Shown: piece after piece, positions 270 through 18,998 of the stretch
How positions within the stretch are numbered: the stretch's first letter is position 1
How the letters are laid out: every line of letters starts with the position of its first letter
Assembly (NCBI GenBank): GCA_030950195.1
Contig: JAUZRS010000157.1
Location: 1-33,360, forward strand
Origin: Gammaproteobacteria bacterium
GTDB lineage: Bacteria > Pseudomonadota > Gammaproteobacteria > JAUZRS01
Reading direction: 5' to 3'
DNA: 33,360 bases
Program-made: the position numbers and the translations under genes
The notes under the pieces: generated by a model
Seen by the model: the letters and a program-made list of their open reading frames with translations, nothing else
Databases searched by the model: none
What the model was told of the DNA's origin: nothing

Positions 270-606
270 ACTCTAAGAGTGTGCCTAAAAAAGGCGTAAG
301 GGTAGCAGAAAATAGGCCCAAGAGGCAGAGTCAGCCCAACATCTCAACCTTGTTTCCTATTCACGACATCTGCATATAGAAAGTATTATCTGGAAATCAA
401 CCATTACCTCGCTTACCATAGGTCGCCGCTTACCATAGGCTTAATGAGTATTTGAGCAATACAGACTCAAAAATCATAAAACTCACGTCTGTGATAGAGG
501 TTATCTATTTTCCTTTTTACTTTTATGTCCCCATCATTACGCCCAAACCCTTGTTTGCACGGCGTTGCTGGGCAATACCCCCCCTATTTTGAGGAGAGAC
601 TCAATA
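270..606. other. Intergenic region between trpF and the repeat lipoprotein
   Basis: This 337-base gap separates two divergent genes and no convincing coding region was seen in it. It holds a 13-base direct repeat (cgcttaccatagg at 410-422 and again at 427-439, period 17) and a small palindrome (actctaagagt, 270-280) just upstream of the trpF start. The last part is AT-rich and contains the Shine-Dalgarno gaggag at 591-596 for the next gene. I could not place a convincing -35/-10 pair. Confidence 0.5.
410..439. repeat. 13-base direct repeat pair upstream of the lipoprotein gene
   Basis: Two exact copies of cgcttaccatagg lie at 410-422 and 427-439, separated by four bases, in the divergent intergenic region. 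The spacing is about 1.6 helical turns. It may be a regulator binding site or a small local duplication; the sequence does not decide. Confidence 0.6.
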
Positions 607-2175
607 ATGAAAAAATTCACCTTAAGCCATCTGGCTCTTAGCCTGATGATTTTGACTGCATCGGCTTGCAGCACCACCAAAGAGAGTGGCCATGCTCTCG
701 CTCTTAACGATGCAGAAAATCTCAAACTGAAATCCGAGCTGGCTGCAAAAGAGGCCGCTCTACAGGAAAAAGATCAGCAGATATCCTCCTATAAAAGTCG
801 GCTGGCCATTGCCAGCGCCTCACCCGCAGCGGCACATTCAAGCGCCTCCGCTTCACCGCTGCTACCCACCCAAGCCGTTGCAGGCGAATGTTATGCCCGC
901 GTCTGGGTACCGGCAAAATACCGCACCGTCACCAATGTCTTGGTGGTAAAAGAGGAGAGCGAACGAGTCGAAATCATCCCTGGTGAATACCAGTGGGCAG
1001 AAGAACAAATTCTGGTCAAAGAGGCCTCCGGCAAGCTGGAAACCATCCCTGCGGTTTTCGGCATCGAAGAAGAAATTGTGGTGGTACAAGAAGCCGCTCG
1101 CATCTGGAAAACCGGTCTGAAAAAAGCCTCCAGCCCAGCCAGCAGCGAGCTGCTCGCCACTGCCAAGACCTATGGCATTGATCTGGACAGCGCTCAAGTA
1201 GGCGAATGTTTCCATGAACATTATCATCCCGCCCAATACAGCACCGAAGCCAAACAGATCAAAATCAGTGAAGCCACCATTGATTTAGCCGCCGCTCCGG
1301 CTCAGTATCGCAACGTTGAAAAACAGGTGCTGGTCAAAGAAGCCACCTTTACACTCAAAGACATTCCGGCTGAATACGAATGGCTAGAAGAAAAAATGGT
1401 GGATAAACCCGCTCACACCACTTGGAAAAAAGGCAGCGGCCCAATTCAACGCATTGACGAAACCACCGGTGAAATCATGTGTTTGGTTGAAATTCCCGCC
1501 ACCTATAAAACCATTCGCAAACGTATTCTAAAATCTCCTGCGCATACGGAAGTGATTGAGATCCCCGCTCAATACAAAACCGTTAAAGTACGTGAATTGG
1601 CCGTCGCTGCCAAAGAGATCAAAACGGAAATTCCGGCTAAATTCAGCTCGGTGGATGTGACCAAAAAACTCTCTGACCCCGAGTTTGTTTGGCATGAGGT
1701 ACACAACTTAGAGGAACCCTCTCACACTCGCACCGGCACCAAAATCTGCTTAACGCAAATACCGGAAATCACCAAAACAGTAAAACGCAAAGTGGTTAAA
1801 ACCCCCGCCACCACCCGCGTCATTGAGATTCCCGCAGAATACGCCAGCATGAAAGTGCGCAAAGTCATCCGCAAACCGGAAGAAACACGCATCAAAATTC
1901 CAGCGGAATATGAAAATGTAGCGGTTAACGAACTGGACAAGGAAGGTTTTATGGAATGGCGTACCATTCTCTGTGAAACCAATATGACCGTGGATCGCAT
2001 CAGCTCTGTACAAACGGCATTACAAGACGCCGGTTACAACCCAGGCCCTATTGATGGCGACATCGGTACATTAACAATGGCGGCGGTAAACAATTTTCAA
2101 CGGGATAATGAATTACCCGTCGATAAATACCTCAACATTGAAACCCTCAAAGCTCTGGGTATTACAGCGAAATAA
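607..2175 (+). CDS. Envelope lipoprotein with a 4 x 3 repeat and a C-terminal peptidoglycan-binding domain
   Basis: The 522-residue product starts with a lipoprotein signal (MKKFTLSHLALSLMILTASA, then Cys21). Residues 35-65 look like a short coiled coil, followed by an Ala/Ser/Pro-rich linker to about 92. Residues 95-456 hold four blocks, each opening with a Cys (C95, C201, C292, C381). Each block contains three copies of a ~23-residue unit of the form IPAxYxxVxxxVLVKxA and closes with a Trp-containing stretch (IWKTG, TWKKG, VWHEV, EWRTI); a fifth Cys is C456. Residues 464-518 resemble the peptidoglycan-binding domain PF01471 (VQTALQDAGYNPGPIDGDIG). The ATG at 607 is chosen over an in-frame start at 565 because gaggag sits eight bases upstream and it yields a proper signal peptide. 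I infer a protein bridging a membrane and the cell wall; no name is recognised for the repeat. Confidence 0.88.
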   Translation: MKKFTLSHLALSLMILTASACSTTKESGHALALNDAENLKLKSELAAKEAALQEKDQQISSYKSRLAIASASPAAAHSSASASPLLPTQAVAGECYARVWVPAKYRTVTNVLVVKEESERVEIIPGEYQWAEEQILVKEASGKLETIPAVFGIEEEIVVVQEAARIWKTGLKKASSPASSELLATAKTYGIDLDSAQVGECFHEHYHPAQYSTEAKQIKISEATIDLAAAPAQYRNVEKQVLVKEATFTLKDIPAEYEWLEEKMVDKPAHTTWKKGSGPIQRIDETTGEIMCLVEIPATYKTIRKRILKSPAHTEVIEIPAQYKTVKVRELAVAAKEIKTEIPAKFSSVDVTKKLSDPEFVWHEVHNLEEPSHTRTGTKICLTQIPEITKTVKRKVVKTPATTRVIEIPAEYASMKVRKVIRKPEETRIKIPAEYENVAVNELDKEGFMEWRTILCETNMTVDRISSVQTALQDAGYNPGPIDGDIGTLTMAAVNNFQRDNELPVDKYLNIETLKALGITAK

Positions 2176-3845: not shown

Positions 3846-4391
3846 TTACAAAGCCGAAATCACCTGCCGAGCATCCGCAACCAGCGGGTGTTTTGGGGTC
3901 GTGCTGATAAAACGCTGCAACTGCTGCCGACTCTCTTTTGACTGACCCAACCCCGCATAAACCAAACCCAAAGCAAAAGTCGCATTGGGTAACAACTCAC
4001 CGTTGGGGTAATCGTGCATAAAGCTCTGCAACACCTGCTTGGCCTGTTGTAAACGCTGCGCCTCAACCAAATGCTGCACTCGATTCAAACTCTTCTGCTG
4101 CGCCACAAATTGGTTTTCGCTGCTCAAATCCTGCTTCCACACCGGCTGCATCATCGACAGCGTACTTTGTGCGCCACGAGTACCGGTCACCGCTGTCACC
4201 GTCACGCTGTGATTAAGCTCTCTGGGGTTGTAACTGCGCAGATGTTGCCACACCTGATAAAACAGCGTTTTTAATTGTGATTTTTGTTGCGACTGAACGA
4301 CGACAAAGGGCGATGAGGCCTCCTTAGCCGCCAGAGAAACACCGCTGGCAGTAATCAACAGTGCCACAACACCGAGTTTTAATAATTTCAT
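3846..4391 (-). CDS. Small secreted TPR-like protein
   Basis: A 181-residue product with signal peptide MKLLKLGVVALLITASGVSLA. The C-terminal ~70 residues (LVEAQRLQQAKQVLQSFM through NATFALGLVYAGLGQSKES) form two to three tetratricopeptide-like helical hairpins, resembling the CpoB/YbgF tail. The middle is Gln-rich and unassigned. The start at 4391 is preferred over 4412 because the minus strand shows gagagg about eight bases before this ATG and it gives a clean signal peptide. It lies about 100 bases downstream of the giant NHL/TPR/transglutaminase-like gene on the same strand and is likely co-transcribed. I infer a periplasmic partner of that protein; no specific function is recognised. Confidence 0.75.
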   Translation of the reverse strand: MKLLKLGVVALLITASGVSLAAKEASSPFVVVQSQQKSQLKTLFYQVWQHLRSYNPRELNHSVTVTAVTGTRGAQSTLSMMQPVWKQDLSSENQFVAQQKSLNRVQHLVEAQRLQQAKQVLQSFMHDYPNGELLPNATFALGLVYAGLGQSKESRQQLQRFISTTPKHPLVADARQVISAL

Positions 4392-4492
4392 AGTCGACCT
4401 CTCATGGTTCACCGAGAGTCCTTCCGTAGACCCTTATCATTTCCTTAAAAGAGTACAAAAACCGAGCAAAGTTATCCATGATCCCCGTCGCA

Positions 4493-7400
4493 CTATTGCA
4501 ACAGCTTATCAAAGGCGGCGAACGACTGCGGTGTGGCCGGTTGCAACAAGACCGCTTGTTCAAACTTCAAGCGCGCCTGACGCAGATCACCCAAACGGTA
4601 ATGGCTCATGGCCATATTAACCTTAATGCCCGCATCATCGTTCAACAGACGTTCGGCATAACGGTAATGTTCTAAGGCTTGCTCAAAATCCCCTTGAGCA
4701 AAAAAGAGGTTAGCGCGATTGTTGTACAACGCGCCATTCGCCCCTCTCTTTTCCAACCCATTCAAAACTCGATGCGCGCGCTCATAAAGGCCATAACGGG
4801 CATATAAAATCACCGTCTGCATTAAGAGTTTCGAATCATTTGGTCGGCTGGCCAACAGCGCTTGATAGGGTTTCAGCTCACGTTCAAGGCTTTTCTCCAA
4901 CAGCAGACGCTGTTCACGCTGCACTCGCAAACGCAGCGTCTGTGAATCAGCCACCTTCAGCTCAAAAGAGGCCGGTTGCAACGTCACCGGCTGATAGCGT
5001 TGCCATGCCTTTTTCAGGGCAATCACCTTGAGTTTATTCTGCGCCTGAAAACGCTGGTATTTTGCCGCACCTTCCGTCCACGCTTCACTAAACGAAATGG
5101 CAATCATGGTCGCTTCCAGAGGAATCCAAACTTGATCTTGATAGATCACCAACAGCTTATTTTGGGCGCTGATCCGATCCCAATCTTGTTTTGCCAAGCC
5201 TGTATTGAACATCAATAACAGATGCCCAGGCACATCCAAAAAAGCCGTTTCAATACCGAGGTTTTCCAGTGACGCACTGAGCAGCACCGACAGATCATCG
5301 CAATCGCCGCTTTTTAAATGCAAGGTTTCACGAGCAAATTGAACGTAATCCACCTGATCCCTATGCACCTTTGAATAAGGGCTGTTGGGGTCTTGAACGT
5401 ACTGAATGCCTTGAGCGGAAAAGGCATCAAACAGAGTCATAGCGGTGACCATATTCGCATTCAGTGGCCCTGGTTTGGGACGATGTTCGTTGATCACCTG
5501 GCGGACAAAGTTATGCAACACCTCATCTTTGGGGGTCACAAAAGAGCCCACCATATTGGCACGTTGCCACAAAATGGCATTTTTTCCGTACAGGGTCACC
5601 GGCTGAGTCAGGCTGATACTCTGCTCTCGACCGTCGCGCACAAACAGCAACTTGACCTCCACCTGCACCCCGGTATCTTCGTCAATCTGCAACACTCGAT
5701 TATTCAAGGCAGCGTACAAAGAAAGATTCAAACTGCTGTTGGCTTTCAAGCTGCCAATCTCTTGCAGTGAGGGGAAATCCATATAACCCTTTATCTCAAA
5801 GCTGAGCTTGAGATTGGCGTAACTGCTGCCACCGGTGTTGCGCAGCCGGATCGTCCCCACCGGCTCGGTGGCGTATTGTTTGTAAGCCACGGAAAAGAGT
5901 GTATTCAAACGCAGATCTTCAAACACCACCTGCGGTGCATTGGATTTAAACTGCATCGACTGTTTTTTATTGGCGTAGGCCGATTCCAGCAGTAATCTGT
6001 TTTCAGCCGTGGGCGCAATGGCCACCGCCTTATCCAAAGCGGCAATGGCACGCTCAAACAGGCGACGTTGACTGAACATGTTTGCCATCAAAAGATAAAT
6101 CGGCGCTTTTTTCGCAGCCAAAAGCAGCGCTTTTTGCAGCAACGGTTCGGCTTTTTCATACAGATTATTGTCAATGTACAATTCAGCCAGCGCCACCTGC
6201 ACAATTTCATTGGCCGGTTGCCGTTTAATCGCCTGTTTTAGGTAGCGTATCGCCTCACCGTTTTTGCCCTGTTCATGAGTGATCTCAGCCAGCAAGTGCA
6301 ACACCTCCACCGAGTCAGGCAAGAGACGTTTTGCCTCCAAGGCCTGTGACAGAGCCTCTTGCAAACGATCTAAATGGTAAAATGCGCTGGCCAAACGAAA
6401 ATGGACTTGACGGTGATCCGCCTGCAAAACCGCTGCCCGACCGAGACTCTCCAGTGCCAAAGGGTAATTTTTTATCGCCAACGCCTGTTCGCCTAACCCC
6501 CATGCAGCAGCAAAAGAATCAGGATTGGCTGCCACCGCTTTTTGCAGCCCATGCAGGACTTTTTTGGGCTCCAGGCGTTTTTTATACAGTTCAGCCAGAG
6601 CCAACCACGCTTGAGCGTTTTGATCATCGGCGTAGGTCGCTTTATTAAAGGCCAGCAGAGCCTCATCGGGATTTTTTTGCGCCACGGCAATCAAACCTAA
6701 CAGATAATGACCGTGACTGAGATGGCTGTTTTCAGCCAACAGAGAAAGAGCAATGTGACGCACTTTGGCGTATTTTTTCAGCGCTAAATAACTCTCTGCC
6801 AAGGCCAGCAAAATATCGCCCTCCTGATCAGACAAGGCTTTGGCCTCTTGCAGATAACGGATGGCACGCCGATGTTTGCCCAACCCCTGTAAAACCAAGG
6901 CCGCACGATAACGAATGGCGCTGTCGCCTTGATCCAGTTTGACTGCTGTATCAAACGCCGCCAGAGCTTTTTTCTGTAGACCCAGTTTCAAATACGCTTG
7001 CCCCAATAAAAAATGCGCTTCGGCGTGTTTTTTCTGCTCGGCCAACAGGCTCTCCAGACAGTTCACCGCCCCAATCGCATCACTCAAACGCAAACTGATC
7101 CGCGCGCAACGCAAATAAGTCGATTCATCGGCCAATTTGGCGGCAATCAACTGCTCCACAACCCGCTGAGCACGTAAATCCTGCCCACCTTGATAAAGCG
7201 CCTCCAACGTTAAACTCAATCCTTCCGCACGATGTTCATCCACCTCGGCCAACAAAGAAAAATAGAGCTGCGCCTCTTCGCTGCGCCCCAAGGCCAAGAG
7301 ACTTTTTCCCAACAGCAGCAAAATCTGCGGGTCATCTTCATAAAAAAGCTGGAGACGGGAAAAAAAATGAATCGCTTGTCTGTAATTGCGCAGTTGATAC

Positions 7401-9529
7401 GCACGGAAAGCCGCACGAAAAAGATCCTCTTGCGCCGTTGAAAGCGCCCCTTCTCGACCGTAATCACTCACTGCACTGACTTGATAATAGAGGGCACCAC
7501 TCTGCGTATGTTCGATGTAAGTATGATTCTCTTTTATCTCATGCAGCAGGCGAAAAGGGCCGCTCTCTTTCTCAGCAGCATAAACACGATAATGATCCAC
7601 AAACGAACTTGAAGCCGATGACCAGCTCAAATAACTGCCTTTTTTCTGGCCACGAATTTTCAACCCCATAACTTTGTCTGGTACTTGTCGATAAGCAAAA
7701 CGAAAAAAACGCCCCCAACCGCTGTCATACAGGCCAATTTCGGTTTTTTCACTGGGATAGAGGCTCAAATTGCGCGCCTGTTTAAAACCCGGAGTAAACA
7801 CCGCTGCCGAGCCAAAACTGAACAGCAGTTGCCGACCTTGAAAGATACGCACGCTGTAATCGTTGTCACTGCTCGCCGCCAAAACATAGAGTCGATCTTG
7901 CGAGTCAATGGCCAAATCATAAAAATGCTCAAAAGGACGTGCTAATGTTTGATTTTCATTCAAACGATAGAGTAATTTATGCTCTGGGCTAAAGACTAAA
8001 ATTTGACCACTGCCCTCATCGGCCACATAAATTCGATTCTGTGAATCCAGAGCCACCGCCACCGGTTTGTTCATCAAACCAGCATCAAGATCCACACGGC
8101 TGATCTTGTCGATAAAAACCCCATCCCGCGAAAATATTTGCAACCGAGCATTACCGCTGTCTGCCACATACAGTTTGTCATTTTTCAGCGCCACACCACG
8201 GGGCTGATTAAATGAACCGTCCTGACTTCCGGTACGACCAATGCTAAAACGCAAACGGCCATCGTGCCGATACACCTTAACGCTGTTGGCAGCCGTGATA
8301 ACAATATCCATAGCGCTGACCGCCACACCGGCAACCTGTTGCAACTGCCCCTCAAACTCTGTTTTTTTACCCTCGCGGCTCAAGCGGTAACTGTGACCGT
8401 TTTTATCCGCCACACAAAGCTGTTCATTGTTTTTCAGTCGATACGCAAATTGACAGTGCAAAACTTCAACACCCGCCTGCTGCAACGTAGCCAAACGACG
8501 CTCTTTTGGCTGCCGAGAAAGATCATCAACGTTATCGTTAAGATGAAAAATGTCTATTTTATGGTTGCCGCTGTCCGCCACCGCCAAACGCTGATCTGGC
8601 AACGCCAGCAAAGCTGTTATTTTACTAAATTGCCCCCGTAAATTACCTTTGCTGCCAAAACGATTCAGCAGTTTTTTCTGCTGCCAATCCAGTTGATATA
8701 CTCGGCCATTGCGATTATCCGCCACATACAACAAACCCTGCTGATCCAGTGCAATAGCCGAAAGTGACACCTGATCTGTGACAATGGTCGAAATCTCAGC
8801 GGCACTCAACTGCTGTAAAAAAGCACCGTCGTGGGCGTAGATCATAATGCGACCTGAATCCGCTGTCTCCAACACAAAAACACGTTCTTGAGCATCCACA
8901 ACCACTTGTTCAGGTGCCTTCAAATACGTTGTGGAACGCCCTGATTTTTTATCACCAAAACTGTGCAAAAACACCCCATCAGCACCAAATACCGACACAC
9001 GACCCGCCCCCATCTCCGCCACATAGAGACGACGGTTATGCGAAAAAAATAACCCTTTGGGTTTGTTTAAACGCCCCTGTTGCGAACCTTTCCCTGCCAA
9101 AAAAGCCGTGATTTTACCCTCGGCATCCAACAGAGCCAACGTACCACTGAGACTGTCGCTGACCACCAGATACCCCTCATCCAAGTGGGCGATGCCAGCC
9201 AAAAATGGACTCTGAAATTTAAGCCCCTTGTGGCTGCTATCAAACCCTTGCCAGCCCTCACTCGACAAGCTCATTACCTGACCCAACAACGAATCAACGC
9301 CATACAGCTTTCCTTCCTCTGTAACGCTCAATCCAGCAAGATAAGAAAAAATCGGCGTACCAGAAGCAGAGCTGATGCTCTTTTCAAGGGTAATATTGGC
9401 TGCGATCAATAAAGAGGGGAAAAGCGATACAGAAAAGAAAGTCAGAGCAAAAAAGAGGCTGTTTAACATAGGTGATAAAATCTGCTTGTCATCCAAAAAA
9501 GGGAATACAGTCCATCTAAGACCAAGCAT
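4493..9529 (-). CDS. Giant exported NHL-repeat / TPR / transglutaminase-like protein
   Basis: A 1678-residue exported protein. Residues ~21-45 are a hydrophobic signal; the ATG at 9529 is used, with an in-frame ATG at 9469 also possible. Residues ~55-615 contain about ten NHL-type propeller repeats (LYVADSGNARLQIF, IYVADEGSGQILVF and similar), probably two beta-propellers. Residues ~617-697 resemble an Fn3 domain. Residues ~703-1186 are about 14 TPRs. Residues ~1200-1315 look like a beta-rich domain. Residues ~1335-1480 are a transglutaminase-like cysteine protease fold with GDCDD (Cys1410), PGHLLLMF (His1436) and WIPLEAT (Glu1472) as a plausible triad. Residues ~1555-1675 are further TPRs. 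It is transcribed away from the MoxR-DUF58-TgpA operon, only 75 bases apart. I infer a periplasmic or surface scaffold with protein-processing or crosslinking activity; the substrate is unknown. Confidence 0.88.
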   Translation of the reverse strand: MLGLRWTVFPFLDDKQILSPMLNSLFFALTFFSVSLFPSLLIAANITLEKSISSASGTPIFSYLAGLSVTEEGKLYGVDSLLGQVMSLSSEGWQGFDSSHKGLKFQSPFLAGIAHLDEGYLVVSDSLSGTLALLDAEGKITAFLAGKGSQQGRLNKPKGLFFSHNRRLYVAEMGAGRVSVFGADGVFLHSFGDKKSGRSTTYLKAPEQVVVDAQERVFVLETADSGRIMIYAHDGAFLQQLSAAEISTIVTDQVSLSAIALDQQGLLYVADNRNGRVYQLDWQQKKLLNRFGSKGNLRGQFSKITALLALPDQRLAVADSGNHKIDIFHLNDNVDDLSRQPKERRLATLQQAGVEVLHCQFAYRLKNNEQLCVADKNGHSYRLSREGKKTEFEGQLQQVAGVAVSAMDIVITAANSVKVYRHDGRLRFSIGRTGSQDGSFNQPRGVALKNDKLYVADSGNARLQIFSRDGVFIDKISRVDLDAGLMNKPVAVALDSQNRIYVADEGSGQILVFSPEHKLLYRLNENQTLARPFEHFYDLAIDSQDRLYVLAASSDNDYSVRIFQGRQLLFSFGSAAVFTPGFKQARNLSLYPSEKTEIGLYDSGWGRFFRFAYRQVPDKVMGLKIRGQKKGSYLSWSSASSSFVDHYRVYAAEKESGPFRLLHEIKENHTYIEHTQSGALYYQVSAVSDYGREGALSTAQEDLFRAAFRAYQLRNYRQAIHFFSRLQLFYEDDPQILLLLGKSLLALGRSEEAQLYFSLLAEVDEHRAEGLSLTLEALYQGGQDLRAQRVVEQLIAAKLADESTYLRCARISLRLSDAIGAVNCLESLLAEQKKHAEAHFLLGQAYLKLGLQKKALAAFDTAVKLDQGDSAIRYRAALVLQGLGKHRRAIRYLQEAKALSDQEGDILLALAESYLALKKYAKVRHIALSLLAENSHLSHGHYLLGLIAVAQKNPDEALLAFNKATYADDQNAQAWLALAELYKKRLEPKKVLHGLQKAVAANPDSFAAAWGLGEQALAIKNYPLALESLGRAAVLQADHRQVHFRLASAFYHLDRLQEALSQALEAKRLLPDSVEVLHLLAEITHEQGKNGEAIRYLKQAIKRQPANEIVQVALAELYIDNNLYEKAEPLLQKALLLAAKKAPIYLLMANMFSQRRLFERAIAALDKAVAIAPTAENRLLLESAYANKKQSMQFKSNAPQVVFEDLRLNTLFSVAYKQYATEPVGTIRLRNTGGSSYANLKLSFEIKGYMDFPSLQEIGSLKANSSLNLSLYAALNNRVLQIDEDTGVQVEVKLLFVRDGREQSISLTQPVTLYGKNAILWQRANMVGSFVTPKDEVLHNFVRQVINEHRPKPGPLNANMVTAMTLFDAFSAQGIQYVQDPNSPYSKVHRDQVDYVQFARETLHLKSGDCDDLSVLLSASLENLGIETAFLDVPGHLLLMFNTGLAKQDWDRISAQNKLLVIYQDQVWIPLEATMIAISFSEAWTEGAAKYQRFQAQNKLKVIALKKAWQRYQPVTLQPASFELKVADSQTLRLRVQREQRLLLEKSLERELKPYQALLASRPNDSKLLMQTVILYARYGLYERAHRVLNGLEKRGANGALYNNRANLFFAQGDFEQALEHYRYAERLLNDDAGIKVNMAMSHYRLGDLRQARLKFEQAVLLQPATPQSFAAFDKLLQ

Positions 9530-9604: not shown

Positions 9605-10522
9605 ATGAAAGAAGCATCGCTGCAAGCAGCCATTACCGCCTGTGAAGAGATTATTTTGGGTAAAAGCCAACAAATCCGCTTGGCCTTTTGCTGCCTACTG
9701 GCCAAGGGGCACCTGCTGATCGAAGATCGACCAGGGGTAGGAAAAACCACTCTGGCCAATACCTTGGCGCAGGTACTGGGGCTGAGTCACCAGCGAATTC
9801 AGTTCACCAGCGACCTGCTCCCCGCCGATCTGCTCGGATGCGCCATCTACCAAATAGAAAACAGCCAGTTTCACTTTCATCCCGGCCCCATTTTCCACCA
9901 GCTTATTTTGGCCGATGAGATCAACCGCACCAGCCCAAAAACCCAAAGCGCGCTACTCGAAGCGATGGAAGAGCAACAGGTCACCGTTGAAGGCCAGACC
10001 CGCCCGCTGAATGTGCCCTTTTTTGTCATTGCCACCCAGAACCCCAACCAGCAATCGGGCACCTTCCCGCTGCCGGAATCCCAGCTGGATCGCTTTCTGA
10101 TGTGCATTTCACTCGGTTACCCCGATCCAGAAGCCGAGAGACGACTGCTGCAAGGCGAAGACCCACGGCATAAAATGGCTCATCTGAGTAATGCCTTAAC
10201 CCCCGAATTACTGCTCCAACTGCAACAACAGGTGAACTCTGTACACGCCTCCGATGCCCTGCTCGACTACCTGCAACACCTGCTCGCGTTCAGCCGCCAA
10301 ACAAAGCACTTTATTGATGGCCTCTCCCCCCGCGCGGGCATGGGCTTGCTGCGCGCTGCCCGTGCGTGGGCGCTGCTGGAACAGCGTGATTATCTGCTGC
10401 CCGAAGATCTGCAAGCGGTGCTGCCCGCCGTGGTGGGACACCGGCTGCAACTGAATCAAAACAGCCCCTCTGAACGAGAGGTTGTGGTGGAAAAACTGCT
10501 CAACGGCGTTGCCATTCCCTAA
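9605..10522 (+). CDS. MoxR-family AAA+ ATPase
   Basis: A 305-residue cytoplasmic ATPase. It shows Walker A (RPGVGKT, residues 42-48), Walker B (ILADE, 101-105) followed by the MoxR hallmark INRTSPKTQSALLEAMEE, sensor 1 (ATQNP, 133-137) and an arginine-finger region (LDRF, 151-154). A C-terminal lid follows (SPRAGMGLLRAARAWALL). MoxR proteins act as chaperones that mature or activate protein complexes, often with VWA or DUF58 partners. Here it is the first gene of a tight MoxR-DUF58-transglutaminase operon, a conserved bacterial arrangement. The start codon at 9605 has only a weak Shine-Dalgarno. Specific target unknown; the DUF58 and TgpA proteins downstream are the natural candidates. Confidence 0.93.
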   Translation: MKEASLQAAITACEEIILGKSQQIRLAFCCLLAKGHLLIEDRPGVGKTTLANTLAQVLGLSHQRIQFTSDLLPADLLGCAIYQIENSQFHFHPGPIFHQLILADEINRTSPKTQSALLEAMEEQQVTVEGQTRPLNVPFFVIATQNPNQQSGTFPLPESQLDRFLMCISLGYPDPEAERRLLQGEDPRHKMAHLSNALTPELLLQLQQQVNSVHASDALLDYLQHLLAFSRQTKHFIDGLSPRAGMGLLRAARAWALLEQRDYLLPEDLQAVLPAVVGHRLQLNQNSPSEREVVVEKLLNGVAIP

Positions 10523-10538
10523 GCCTTGCTGCATCACT

Positions 10539-10542
10539 GGAG
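10539..10542 (+). promoter_or_regulatory. Shine-Dalgarno placing the DUF58 start at CTG 10551
   Basis: ggag at 10539-10542 sits eight bases before a CTG at 10551. The reading frame has no ATG before the first membrane segment. The upstream TTGs (10482, 10509) lack a properly spaced Shine-Dalgarno. Confidence 0.45.
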
Positions 10543-10550
10543 TCACTGCC

Positions 10551-11489
10551 CTGTCTTTTTTTCAACGCTGGCTCGACAAACGCATTCCTTGGGATGAAAC
10601 CCCCAGCCGTCTGACACGCCAGCGCATCTACATTTTGCCCACTATCGCAGGCCTCTTTTACGCCCTACTGCTGATGATTTTACTGCTGGCGGCCAGCAAC
10701 TACGGCACCAGTTTGGGCTTTCTTCTGACCTTTTTTCTAACGGGTTTATCACTGGTCAGTATGCTGCACGGTTTTCGCAATCTGCTCAATTTGGAGATTC
10801 AAATTCACTCTGCCAACGCCGTTTTTGTCGGCGAAGAGAGCCATTTTAACATCGAAATTTACAACCCAAACAGCAGCCCACATCCGATGATCACTCTCGT
10901 TCACGCAACCCAACAGCACACTCTAAATCTGCTGGCAGACCAACGACACCGCTGCACTCTCTCCATAACCACCACTCGGCGGGGTTATCTCGCTTTGGGA
11001 AAAGTACACATCAACACACTCTATCCTCTCGGTCTGTTTCGCTGCTGGTCCAGCATTGGCTCTCGCCAACGGGTTTTAATCTACCCCAAACCTTTAAGCC
11101 ATTCAGCGCCTCTGCCTCATGTTCAAGACAACACTCAGCAAAACAACAACCAGAAAATCGACGAAGAATATCAAGGCGTGCGCGACTACCAACGCGGCGA
11201 TTCTGCCCGCCGCATCGACTGGAAAGCGCTGGCCAAAGGCCACGGCACACTGGTAAAAAACTACCAAACACCGCAAAACGAACGCCTGCAACTGCATTGG
11301 CAACTGACCCAAGGCGATACAGAACGCCGTCTGTCTCAGCTCTGTGCTTGGATTTTACAGGCCGAACGACAACAAAAAATCTACAGCTTGCATCTACCAC
11401 ACTCTCCTCCCTTGATCGGAAGAGGTGAACAACACAAACAGCGTTGCCTGAAAAACTTGGCTCTGTTTGGCTTAAAAGACGATGAATAA
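10551..11489 (+). CDS. DUF58-domain membrane protein
   Basis: About 312 residues. Two adjacent membrane helices lie near the N-terminus (ILPTIAGLFYALLLMILLLA and the following LGFLLTFFLTGLSLVS). The C-terminal half carries the DUF58 (PF01882) signature EEYQGVRDYQRGDSARRIDW followed by KALAKGHGTLVKNYQ, at about 11163-11268. DUF58 proteins neighbour MoxR ATPases and transglutaminases, and are thought to work with them at the inner membrane. The first residues SFFQRWLDKRIP match where family members usually begin, which with ggag at 10539 favours CTG 10551; TTG 10509 or TTG 10482 are alternatives that would overlap the MoxR gene. The stop overlaps the next start (atgaataa, 11482-11489), implying translational coupling to the transglutaminase gene. 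Confidence 0.9.
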   Translation: MSFFQRWLDKRIPWDETPSRLTRQRIYILPTIAGLFYALLLMILLLAASNYGTSLGFLLTFFLTGLSLVSMLHGFRNLLNLEIQIHSANAVFVGEESHFNIEIYNPNSSPHPMITLVHATQQHTLNLLADQRHRCTLSITTTRRGYLALGKVHINTLYPLGLFRCWSSIGSRQRVLIYPKPLSHSAPLPHVQDNTQQNNNQKIDEEYQGVRDYQRGDSARRIDWKALAKGHGTLVKNYQTPQNERLQLHWQLTQGDTERRLSQLCAWILQAERQQKIYSLHLPHSPPLIGRGEQHKQRCLKNLALFGLKDDE

Positions 11490-13431
11490 GCACAACAGAC
11501 TCAACCGTCAACCATTGCTGCTGCTCTGGTTTAGCTTTCTGCTCACCGCTCTGCCCCATCTAAGCCAACTCACGTTTTGGCTCTGGCCACTGCTGCTGGT
11601 CAGCGGTCTGCTACGTTACCTGCAATATAAAAAACAGCCATGGGCGCAAGCAAGAAGCCTGCGCCTTTTGTTGGTCGTGGCTGTAGCAGCCTTGGTGATC
11701 AGCAGCACTCAGGGTGTCTTTGGACGAGAGGCAGGCATTACCTTGTTAATCGCCATGATTGCCTTGAAATTTTTAGAGAGTCAGCAGCGCCGCGATGGTG
11801 TTTTGATCGTACTGCTGACCTACTTTCTCGCCAGCAGCCACTTTCTCTATCGACAAGATCTAAACATCAGCCTCTACCTGCTGCCCGTGCTGCTCTGCAA
11901 TGGCGTTGCCCTATTGGCACTCTACAACCCCCAACAAAACTGGCCACCTCGGCTTAAACTGCTCTTCAGCTTAAGCCTGCAAGCACTGCCTATTATGTTT
12001 CTGCTGTTTCTGCTTTTTCCGCGCATTTCAGGGCCTTTATGGGGACTCTCCAACAGTGAAAACCGCGCCAGCAGTGGTCTAAGTGAAAGCATGTCACCTG
12101 GCAACATCAGCCAATTGACCCGCTCAGCAAAAACCGTTTTTCGGGTTAACTTTGCCACCAATATTCCCAAAGCCAATCAACGCTACTGGCGCGGGCCAAT
12201 TTTGTGGCACTTTGATGGCCACACTTGGCGCGCAGGAAACAACAGACCTTGGGAAAAAACGCAACTGGATCAGCTCGCCGATCCCATCGATTATCAACTG
12301 GCGTTGGAACCTCATTATAAAAAATGGCTACTGGCTCTGGACATCACTCCACACGCACCGGCAGGCACACGGCTTAATGGCAACGCCCAACTGCTGAGCC
12401 AAAAAAGCATCCAACAAGCGCAGCAATACACCCTGCGCAGTTACCTCAGTTATCGACTGGATCTGCAGCTCCCTCTCTGGCAAAAAACGTTAGCACTGCA
12501 ACTGCCACAACAGCTCAACCCAAAAACCGCCGCACTGGCGCGCTCATGGCAAAAGATCAGCTCGGATCCCAACATCTTGGTAAAAAGCGCACTGAACTAT
12601 TTTAATCAGCAGAATTTTTATTACACTCTGCGCCCACCGCCCCTGCGCGGCAAGCATGAGATTGATGATTTTCTCTTCAACAGCCGCCGTGGATTTTGTG
12701 AGCACTACGCCAGCAGTTTTGTGGTGCTGATGCGTTCCATTGGCATTCCTGCGCGGGTGGTCACCGGCTACATGGGCGGCAGCATGAACCAATTGGGTAA
12801 TTATCTGATCGTGCGCCAGTGGGATGCCCACGCTTGGGCTGAGGTCTGGCTGGAGGGCAAAGGCTGGCAGCGCGTCGATCCTACCGCAGCAGTGGCACCG
12901 GAACGGGTCGAAGAGGGCATTGATGCGGCACTTTCAGCAGAAGAGAGACGCTCACTGGGCGGGCGACAGAGTGGCCTGTTTAAGCAGCTGAACTTTTTTT
13001 GGGATTCGATGAATCACCATTGGAATCGCTGGGTCGTGGGTTACGATTTGCAACAACAACAGCACTTTCTGGCCCATTTTGGCCTTAAAAACAGCTCCGA
13101 TGCAGTACTTGCTTTGAGCCTCGGCATCAGCACTCTGTTGGCGCTGTTGAGCCTCTGGTTTTTACGCCAACGGCGCAGACAAAAACAGCCCTTAAGCCTC
13201 AAAGCCTATACTCTTCTGCGCAAAAAAGCCGCCAAAGCAGGTGTCATCTCACCCCTCAACGAAGGCCCACAACACTTTCAACAGCGTCTCTGTCAAGCAT
13301 TTCCCAAGCAGAAAAACGACCTTGAGGCTCTATTTCAGCTCTTTATTCAGCTTCGTTACCAAAAAAAGGGCGGCCACAAAGATGCAAAACGGTTCTATCA
13401 ACAGGTAAAAAAATTACGTTTAAAACGCTAA
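11482..13431 (+). CDS. TgpA-type membrane transglutaminase-like protein (DUF3488 + transglutaminase core)
   Basis: 649 residues. The N-terminal ~190 residues contain five to six membrane helices (DUF3488 type, ending MFLLFLLFPRISGPLWGLS). A periplasmic region follows, with the transglutaminase core: Cys406 in RRGFCEHYASSF, His450 in WDAHAWAEVW and Asp466 in QRVDPTA, the expected catalytic triad. A further helix near 540-560 (VLALSLGISTLLALLSLWFL) leads to a cytoplasmic tail of the DUF4129 type. The family includes Pseudomonas aeruginosa TgpA. Its biochemical substrate is not settled, so crosslinking or peptidase activity are both open. It is the last gene of the MoxR-DUF58-TgpA operon and converges on the DUF1249 gene with only two bases between stops and no visible terminator. 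Confidence 0.92.
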   Translation: MNKHNRLNRQPLLLLWFSFLLTALPHLSQLTFWLWPLLLVSGLLRYLQYKKQPWAQARSLRLLLVVAVAALVISSTQGVFGREAGITLLIAMIALKFLESQQRRDGVLIVLLTYFLASSHFLYRQDLNISLYLLPVLLCNGVALLALYNPQQNWPPRLKLLFSLSLQALPIMFLLFLLFPRISGPLWGLSNSENRASSGLSESMSPGNISQLTRSAKTVFRVNFATNIPKANQRYWRGPILWHFDGHTWRAGNNRPWEKTQLDQLADPIDYQLALEPHYKKWLLALDITPHAPAGTRLNGNAQLLSQKSIQQAQQYTLRSYLSYRLDLQLPLWQKTLALQLPQQLNPKTAALARSWQKISSDPNILVKSALNYFNQQNFYYTLRPPPLRGKHEIDDFLFNSRRGFCEHYASSFVVLMRSIGIPARVVTGYMGGSMNQLGNYLIVRQWDAHAWAEVWLEGKGWQRVDPTAAVAPERVEEGIDAALSAEERRSLGGRQSGLFKQLNFFWDSMNHHWNRWVVGYDLQQQQHFLAHFGLKNSSDAVLALSLGISTLLALLSLWFLRQRRRQKQPLSLKAYTLLRKKAAKAGVISPLNEGPQHFQQRLCQAFPKQKNDLEALFQLFIQLRYQKKGGHKDAKRFYQQVKKLRLKR

Positions 13432-18449: not shown

Positions 18450-18998
18450 CTACACCCCGCACCACTGGCGCTCACAAGGCACGCCGTCGTTATTGCCGTC
18501 GATGGTGGTATTCGGGCAGTTATTCAGATAGAAGGTGGCCTCGGCACAAGAGGTCATCTCTGAGCAGGTGGTTTTCCCCTGACAACCGTAGAGGAAAAAT
18601 TCATACAAATTTTTCATCATCGCCGTGCTCACAAAATGTTTACCACTCACGCTGCCACAGGCGCTGTTATCGCTCTGATAAACACTCTGCAACCCCGCGC
18701 TGTCGGTGATAGTGGCGGTGTAAGTGGTTCCATCGGTGATGCAGCTCAAGTTCAACGTGGTCTCCTGCATTTTTGCCAAGTGCACCGCCGCTTCGGTGCT
18801 GAGCATGGCACGGTCGTAATCAAACACCGCACTGGGAGCCAATGCATTACCCCCGTTTTGACGCATCACCACCTTCTGGCTGCTGGCGCTCCAAATGGGA
18901 TCACCGCAGTTAAGACAGACCGCCTCATTGGGTTCACTGCACGCACTCAAAACAAAGGCGACGGGGATAAAAAAGCACAACGGCATGACTCTATTCAT
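18450..18998 (-). CDS. Secreted lipoprotein with C-terminal Excalibur-like Ca-binding motif
   Basis: 182 residues. The lipoprotein signal is MNRVMPLCFFIPVAFVLSAC with Cys20 as the lipidation site. The mature part is Cys-rich, with further Cys at 28, 31, 86, 114, 139, 145, 151, 161, 175 and 180 suggesting disulfides. Residues 151-181 (CAEATFYLNNCP, then DGNNDGVPCE and WC) match the Excalibur domain pattern (PF05901, DxDxDGxxCE), an EF-hand-like calcium-binding motif usually found on extracellular proteins. The middle region is not recognised. It starts only 20 bases after the ruvB stop on the same strand, so it is probably co-transcribed with yebC-ruvCAB although the function looks unrelated. 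Role unknown. Confidence 0.8.
   Translation of the reverse strand: MNRVMPLCFFIPVAFVLSACSEPNEAVCLNCGDPIWSASSQKVVMRQNGGNALAPSAVFDYDRAMLSTEAAVHLAKMQETTLNLSCITDGTTYTATITDSAGLQSVYQSDNSACGSVSGKHFVSTAMMKNLYEFFLYGCQGKTTCSEMTSCAEATFYLNNCPNTTIDGNNDGVPCERQWCGV

Follow-up and report, generated by a model that had tools for sequence, protein, structure and literature searches.

The window, a stretch of 33,360 nucleotides from a gammaproteobacterial contig analysed at its full length, encodes a giant repeat protein in which a candidate thiol enzyme is embedded. The protein (P0001, 1678 residues, 4493..9529, minus strand) combines NHL and TPR repeats with an Ig-like domain and a transglutaminase-like (TG) domain. 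The TG domain contains an invariant Cys-His-Glu triad and is homologous to other TG-type modules. The large gene is strictly linked to a gene for a short TPR protein. We propose, with about even confidence, that the large protein is an exported envelope scaffold carrying an Ig-like+TG thiol hydrolase that would work with this co-encoded partner.

The gene was delineated by its open reading frame (9529..4493) and by full-length homologues. The coordinates in the first-pass annotation proved exact; that annotation omitted the minus strand, on which all features of the protein described below lie, and the Ig-like domain (residues 1191-1320). On inspection, M21 (9469) fits better as the start codon, with the signal peptide beginning there, and is probably the real start. 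The signal-peptide-like N-terminus MLNSLFFALTFFSVSLFPSLLIAA (9398..9469) was recognised by inspection, and the pairing of cysteines (359/372 and 808/824) is consistent with an oxidising compartment. The protein is predicted to be exported via Sec to the envelope or periplasm.

The NHL-repeat region (residues 61-620, 7670..9349) is supported by a Pfam match (PF01436, 7e-27) and by blade motifs. About 12 blade-like repeats were counted by inspection, seven of which follow the strict blade pattern, and the region probably forms two propellers; the NHL assignment made earlier thus stands, the count of about ten does not. A candidate FN3-like linker domain (residues 621-690, 7460..7669) corresponds to a Pfam fn3 match at the equivalent place in a homologue (L056), and is below the Pfam threshold in the window protein itself. 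It is followed by the first TPR array (residues 691-1190, 5960..7459), the Ig-like beta-sandwich domain (5570..5959), the TG domain (residues 1321-1520, 4970..5569) and the C-terminal TPR array (residues 1521-1678, 4496..4969). Both TPR arrays were identified by Pfam (TPR_2, 9.5e-34) and, as the first reading had it, they flank the TG site on either side, downstream of the NHL repeats. The Ig-like domain was assigned from the structure model, matches to Ig/LEA-type sandwiches in PDB and alignment with the N-terminal domain of ProA, and the TG domain from sub-threshold Pfam matches and profile comparisons with ProA and LapG. No family spanning the full-length protein was found in Pfam or among the curated models. 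The PEP-CTERM families PrsT and ScyF (TIGR02917 and NF035926) reach 133.6 of 312.2 and 131.8 of 350 bits, respectively, and these matches reflect repeat similarity only, as do those to MamA and PilW, which are far below the cut-offs.

The predicted active site comprises three residues, identified in alignments. The candidate nucleophile C1410 (5300..5302) is situated within the invariant motif GDCDD, which starts at residue 1408; the candidate general base H1436 (5222..5224) is in VPGHLLLMF, from residue 1433; and E1472 (5114..5116), the predicted third member of the triad, belongs to WIPLEAT, with the general form WxPxE[AT]T. The residues, their order and the motifs are those originally noted. 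The third residue in the superfamily of TG-like cysteine proteases is Asp or Glu (PMC4866520). The superfamily pattern of Cys, His and Asp/Glu in this order, with Cys at the start of a helix and His and the acid on the following strands, is present in the window protein.

All three residues are invariant in 21 of 21 aligned near-full-length homologues from two classes. They are also kept in 15 gammaproteobacterial loci and in a diverged 1245-residue form, and no homologue without the Cys or the His was found. In the 21-protein alignment the TG region is the best conserved part of the protein: invariant columns make up 25.5% of it, compared to 17.7% of the Ig-like domain, 3.2% of the propellers and 2.4% of the first TPR array. 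When four ProA-type proteins with 13-18% identity are added, 14 of 310 gapless columns remain invariant, and all three triad residues are among them; the chance that three given columns would all fall into this set is 7.4e-5. Given this and the invariance in the 21 homologues, conservation of the triad is not a matter of chance, and strong constraint acts on the Cys-His-Glu site. That the site is catalytic is a well-supported prediction. Between two congeners, dN/dS is approximately 0.10 for the TG domain and for the whole protein alike, and the Ig-like domain is identical.

In the same alignment, the cysteine pair 359/372 is invariant and is accompanied by either 808/824 or 1051/1059. Of the cysteines common to all homologues, C1410 alone lacks a regular pair partner. 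This is consistent with an exported protein having disulfides and one catalytic thiol. The acidic residues D1409, D1411 and D1412 of the DCDD segment around C1410 are invariant in homologues of the large protein and only partly retained in the ProA branch, so they may not bind calcium.

Pfam families match the TG site below their thresholds. Transglut_core (PF01841) scores 16.2-17.9 bits against a gathering score of 23, and DUF553 (PF04473), a family without established function, scores 18.3 bits against 20.5. Nevertheless, these two families are the best Pfam matches, located at the Cys segment, in 15 of 15 members scanned, with scores below the gathering score in every member for which a score was shown.

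A stronger relationship was observed with ProA. Positions 2-324 of the ProA family NF058533 match the Ig-like+TG pair at 45.9 bits (E=1.5e-12), far below the family cut-off of 1500. In profile-profile comparison, the pair aligns over 285 columns (E=5.7e-16) with the Ig-like+TG modules of DUF4011-helicase proteins and of secreted stand-alone proteins, and the reciprocal search from ProA-type modules recovers the window protein at E=1.1e-15. Judging by these profiles, there is clear homology between the pair and the N-terminal module of the anti-phage protein ProA, whose first 320 residues or so have the same two domains and the same Cys-His-Glu order; Glu is the third triad residue in both families. 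The remainder of the proteins is different. ProA has the architecture DUF4011-helicase-MTES nuclease-DUF3320 and no NHL or TPR repeats, whereas the window protein appears to be exported and a Pfam scan detected in it neither DUF4011, helicase, MTES nuclease nor DUF3320, all present in the ProA-type protein L057.

ProA-type proteins with the complete DUF4011-helicase-MTES-DUF3320 arrangement (L057:5198-11113 and L087-L092) start with an Ig-like+TG module containing Cys-His-Glu, and this N-terminal module has no above-threshold Pfam annotation. Secreted stand-alone Ig-like+TG proteins occur in two related genera (G366 and G746; L058:2250-3488 and L059:2464-4077, both on the minus strand). They contain both domains of the window module and have signal-peptide-like N-termini, but are about 400 residues long and lack NHL and TPR repeats.

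Among characterised peptidases, the TG domain resembles LapG (PF06035, Peptidase_C93). In hhalign comparisons, LapG proteins match the TG domain around the Cys (E=2.3e-5), and with a wider TG profile both Cys and His are aligned (E=3.1e-5). The two families share the motif DYxxxPxExL..GDC[ED]D and the acids beside the Cys. LapG and DvhG require calcium, which they bind through acidic residues flanking the Cys (PMC13090378). However, LapG is a small single-domain protein with Asp as the third residue, whereas the window protein is a giant multidomain protein with Glu, and the Cys-His and His-acid distances are 35 and 17 in LapG compared to 26 and 36 here. The earlier claim that both order and spacing of a TG-like protease site are kept therefore holds for the order, while the spacing of the acidic residue differs (36 versus 17). 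The window protein is not itself LapG: it has no PF06035 match, its third residue is Glu, and a separate LapG is encoded on another contig of the genome.

TgpA (PF11992 plus Transglut_core) is a TG-type enzyme as well, and its operon adjoins the large gene in this genus and in genome G086. It is a membrane protein with TgpA_N and DUF4129 domains, both absent from the window protein, and no profile match was found between the module and TgpA; a paralogous origin was rejected for this reason. Profile matches to orotate phosphoribosyltransferase from PDB are located in the Ig-like part and are incoherent with it; they were taken as chance.

Structure prediction is compatible with a TG-type arrangement. 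The AlphaFold model of the Ig-like+TG region (pLDDT 76), based on an alignment of limited depth containing gammaproteobacterial sequences only, shows a beta-sandwich followed by a helix-strand arrangement. In the models the Cys immediately precedes a helix, the His opens a strand and the Glu closes one. The mean pLDDT of the TG-only model is 69, and the loop preceding the Cys is below 50. The top Foldseek matches of this model in PDB are TG-superfamily proteins (Rad4/XPC, PNGase, arylamine N-acetyltransferase), none of them significant (E 0.57 or worse), and the two-domain model retrieves only Ig-like sandwiches. The structural check proposed in the first-pass annotation thus gives models with the TG order of the site and TG-type but non-significant matches, which is compatible with a TG core but not decisive. 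Since no structural match is significant, the case for homology rests on the profiles (1.5e-12 and 5.7e-16 for ProA, 3.1e-5 for LapG).

The genome searches were confined to one phylum. One scan of species genomes yielded 15 gammaproteobacterial loci with the same large protein. The full module is present in 7 of 369 genomes of this class, and two more have weak TG-only matches. Of 78 genomes in a second class, 18 match, or 17 after removal of G580, whose match was false: the contig is phage-like and encodes a small unrelated TG-type protein (L084:5652-6143). The 1245-residue form is encoded in G713.

The partner gene (3846..4412, minus strand) starts 80 bp downstream of the large gene and encodes a short exported TPR protein of 188 residues, supported by Pfam TPR_6 and by conserved linkage. 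Alignment of partners revealed the motif GxRGxExT...PxWxxD (4125..4184, minus strand) before the TPRs; neither Gln nor Lys is invariant at any position. In each of the 25 loci that could be read (13 named and 12 further), the large gene is followed immediately downstream, on the same strand, by the partner gene. In a sample of 398 genomes it is found in 21 at no less than 95 bits, the next best match being at 47 bits, and each of these 21 genomes has the large gene: 20 by search, and G631 as a fragment of 129 C-terminal residues at the edge of a contig. A conserved wider operon was ruled out, as the neighbours vary by lineage (glycogen genes, lpxA/tsaB, gshA, a CHASE2 cyclase gene, pilBCD). 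Since all other neighbours differ, the large gene and its partner form a two-gene unit. In view of the strict linkage, the two proteins may also be in physical contact.

Several other genes were observed near the unit. In the window, a MoxR-DUF58-TgpA operon (9605-13431, plus strand) is divergent from the large gene at a distance of 75 bp; the arrangement recurs in G086 (L030), with ClpA further along. A gene encoding CHASE2 and an adenylate/guanylate cyclase adjoins the unit in two classes, divergently upstream in L007:295-2559 and L008:2203-4410 and directly downstream in L054:11901-14135. A signalling link is possible. Two related genomes (L028 and L029) have a periplasmic Lnb_N/DUF7840 protein (L028:16617-18521) a few genes from the unit. 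Elsewhere in the window, 565-2175 (plus strand) encodes a lipoprotein-like protein in which many degenerate P-A-x-Y repeats precede a peptidoglycan-binding domain, and 18450-18998 (minus strand) a small lipoprotein-like protein with a C-terminal Excalibur calcium-binding domain.

One mode of action can be suggested on this basis. The propellers and TPR arrays would serve as docking surfaces presenting a substrate to the Ig-like+TG module, so that the large protein would both bind and process its partners. C1410 would attack a carbonyl of the docked substrate, with H1436 activating the thiol and E1472 orienting the His; D1409, D1411 and D1412 beside the Cys would probably bind calcium, as in LapG, and the enzyme may be calcium-dependent. 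The reaction would most likely be hydrolysis of a peptide or amide bond, by a peptidase or amidase. The short TPR protein could be a dedicated co-factor or adaptor, or else the substrate.

Hydrolysis is preferred to cross-linking because the module is similar to LapG and because the partner has neither Gln nor Lys at an invariant position. The catalytic chemistry and the superfamily would be identical for a true transamidase or deamidase, cross-linking or deamidating Gln side chains of envelope proteins and so building structure; there is a sub-threshold Transglut_core match, and a TPR/propeller scaffold is suited to hold two substrates. However, among the characterised enzymes tested, significant profile similarity was observed only to the LapG peptidase set, and TgpA, a canonical Transglut_core protein, does not match the module. 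Cross-linking of the partner via a conserved Gln or Lys is not supported, and the partner is unlikely to have a conserved cross-link site. We consider a transamidase unlikely. The TG fold could also be a binding domain without catalytic activity, as in Rad4/XPC, where the TG domain is not an enzyme, the entire protein being a structural scaffold. Indeed, repeats make up most of this large protein, and Rad4/XPC are its nearest, albeit non-significant, structural matches. But non-catalytic TG domains usually lack the catalytic residues, whereas the full Cys-His-Glu triad is kept here and in ProA-type modules at 13-18% identity, which makes a purely structural role quite doubtful.

The kinship with ProA raises the further question of defence. 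An extracytoplasmic anti-phage or conflict system, in which the protein would be the envelope counterpart of the cytosolic N-terminal module of ProA and would sense or process phage proteins, agrees with the homology of the Ig-like+TG pair and with its patchy distribution (7 of 369 genomes and two weak TG-only matches in one class, 18 of 78 including the false G580 in the other). On the other hand, the protein shows long, slow vertical conservation, and synteny with MoxR/DUF58/TgpA and ClpA is common to G086; the neighbours are housekeeping genes rather than defence islands, and PADLOC gave no match. A defence system of this kind thus seems very unlikely, and the hydrolase scaffold working with its partner remains the reading we prefer.

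No description of NHL, TPR and TG domains in one bacterial protein was found in the literature searched. What appears to be new is the architecture, the presence of a Glu triad in such a setting, the association with an obligate partner and the relationship to ProA; the chemistry and the fold class were already known. A bolder proposal, which we regard as rather unlikely in its entirety, is that the pair forms an undescribed two-gene envelope system occurring in at least two classes: a giant NHL/TPR scaffold with a ProA-type Cys-His-Glu thiol enzyme would process, or be switched by, an obligate short TPR partner, and this envelope form may itself serve in defence or signalling.

An apparently ordinary repeat scaffold thus becomes a candidate enzyme, and since it has a defined predicted active site and one always-present partner, its function is directly testable. 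Relatives of an Ig-like+TG module known from an anti-phage protein also appear to occur beyond the cytosol, and the window protein, with no helicase or nuclease attached, provides a simple system for learning the role of the ProA-type module. If the bolder proposal is true, one enzyme module would be used in the biology of the envelope as well as in defence against phages in the cytosol.
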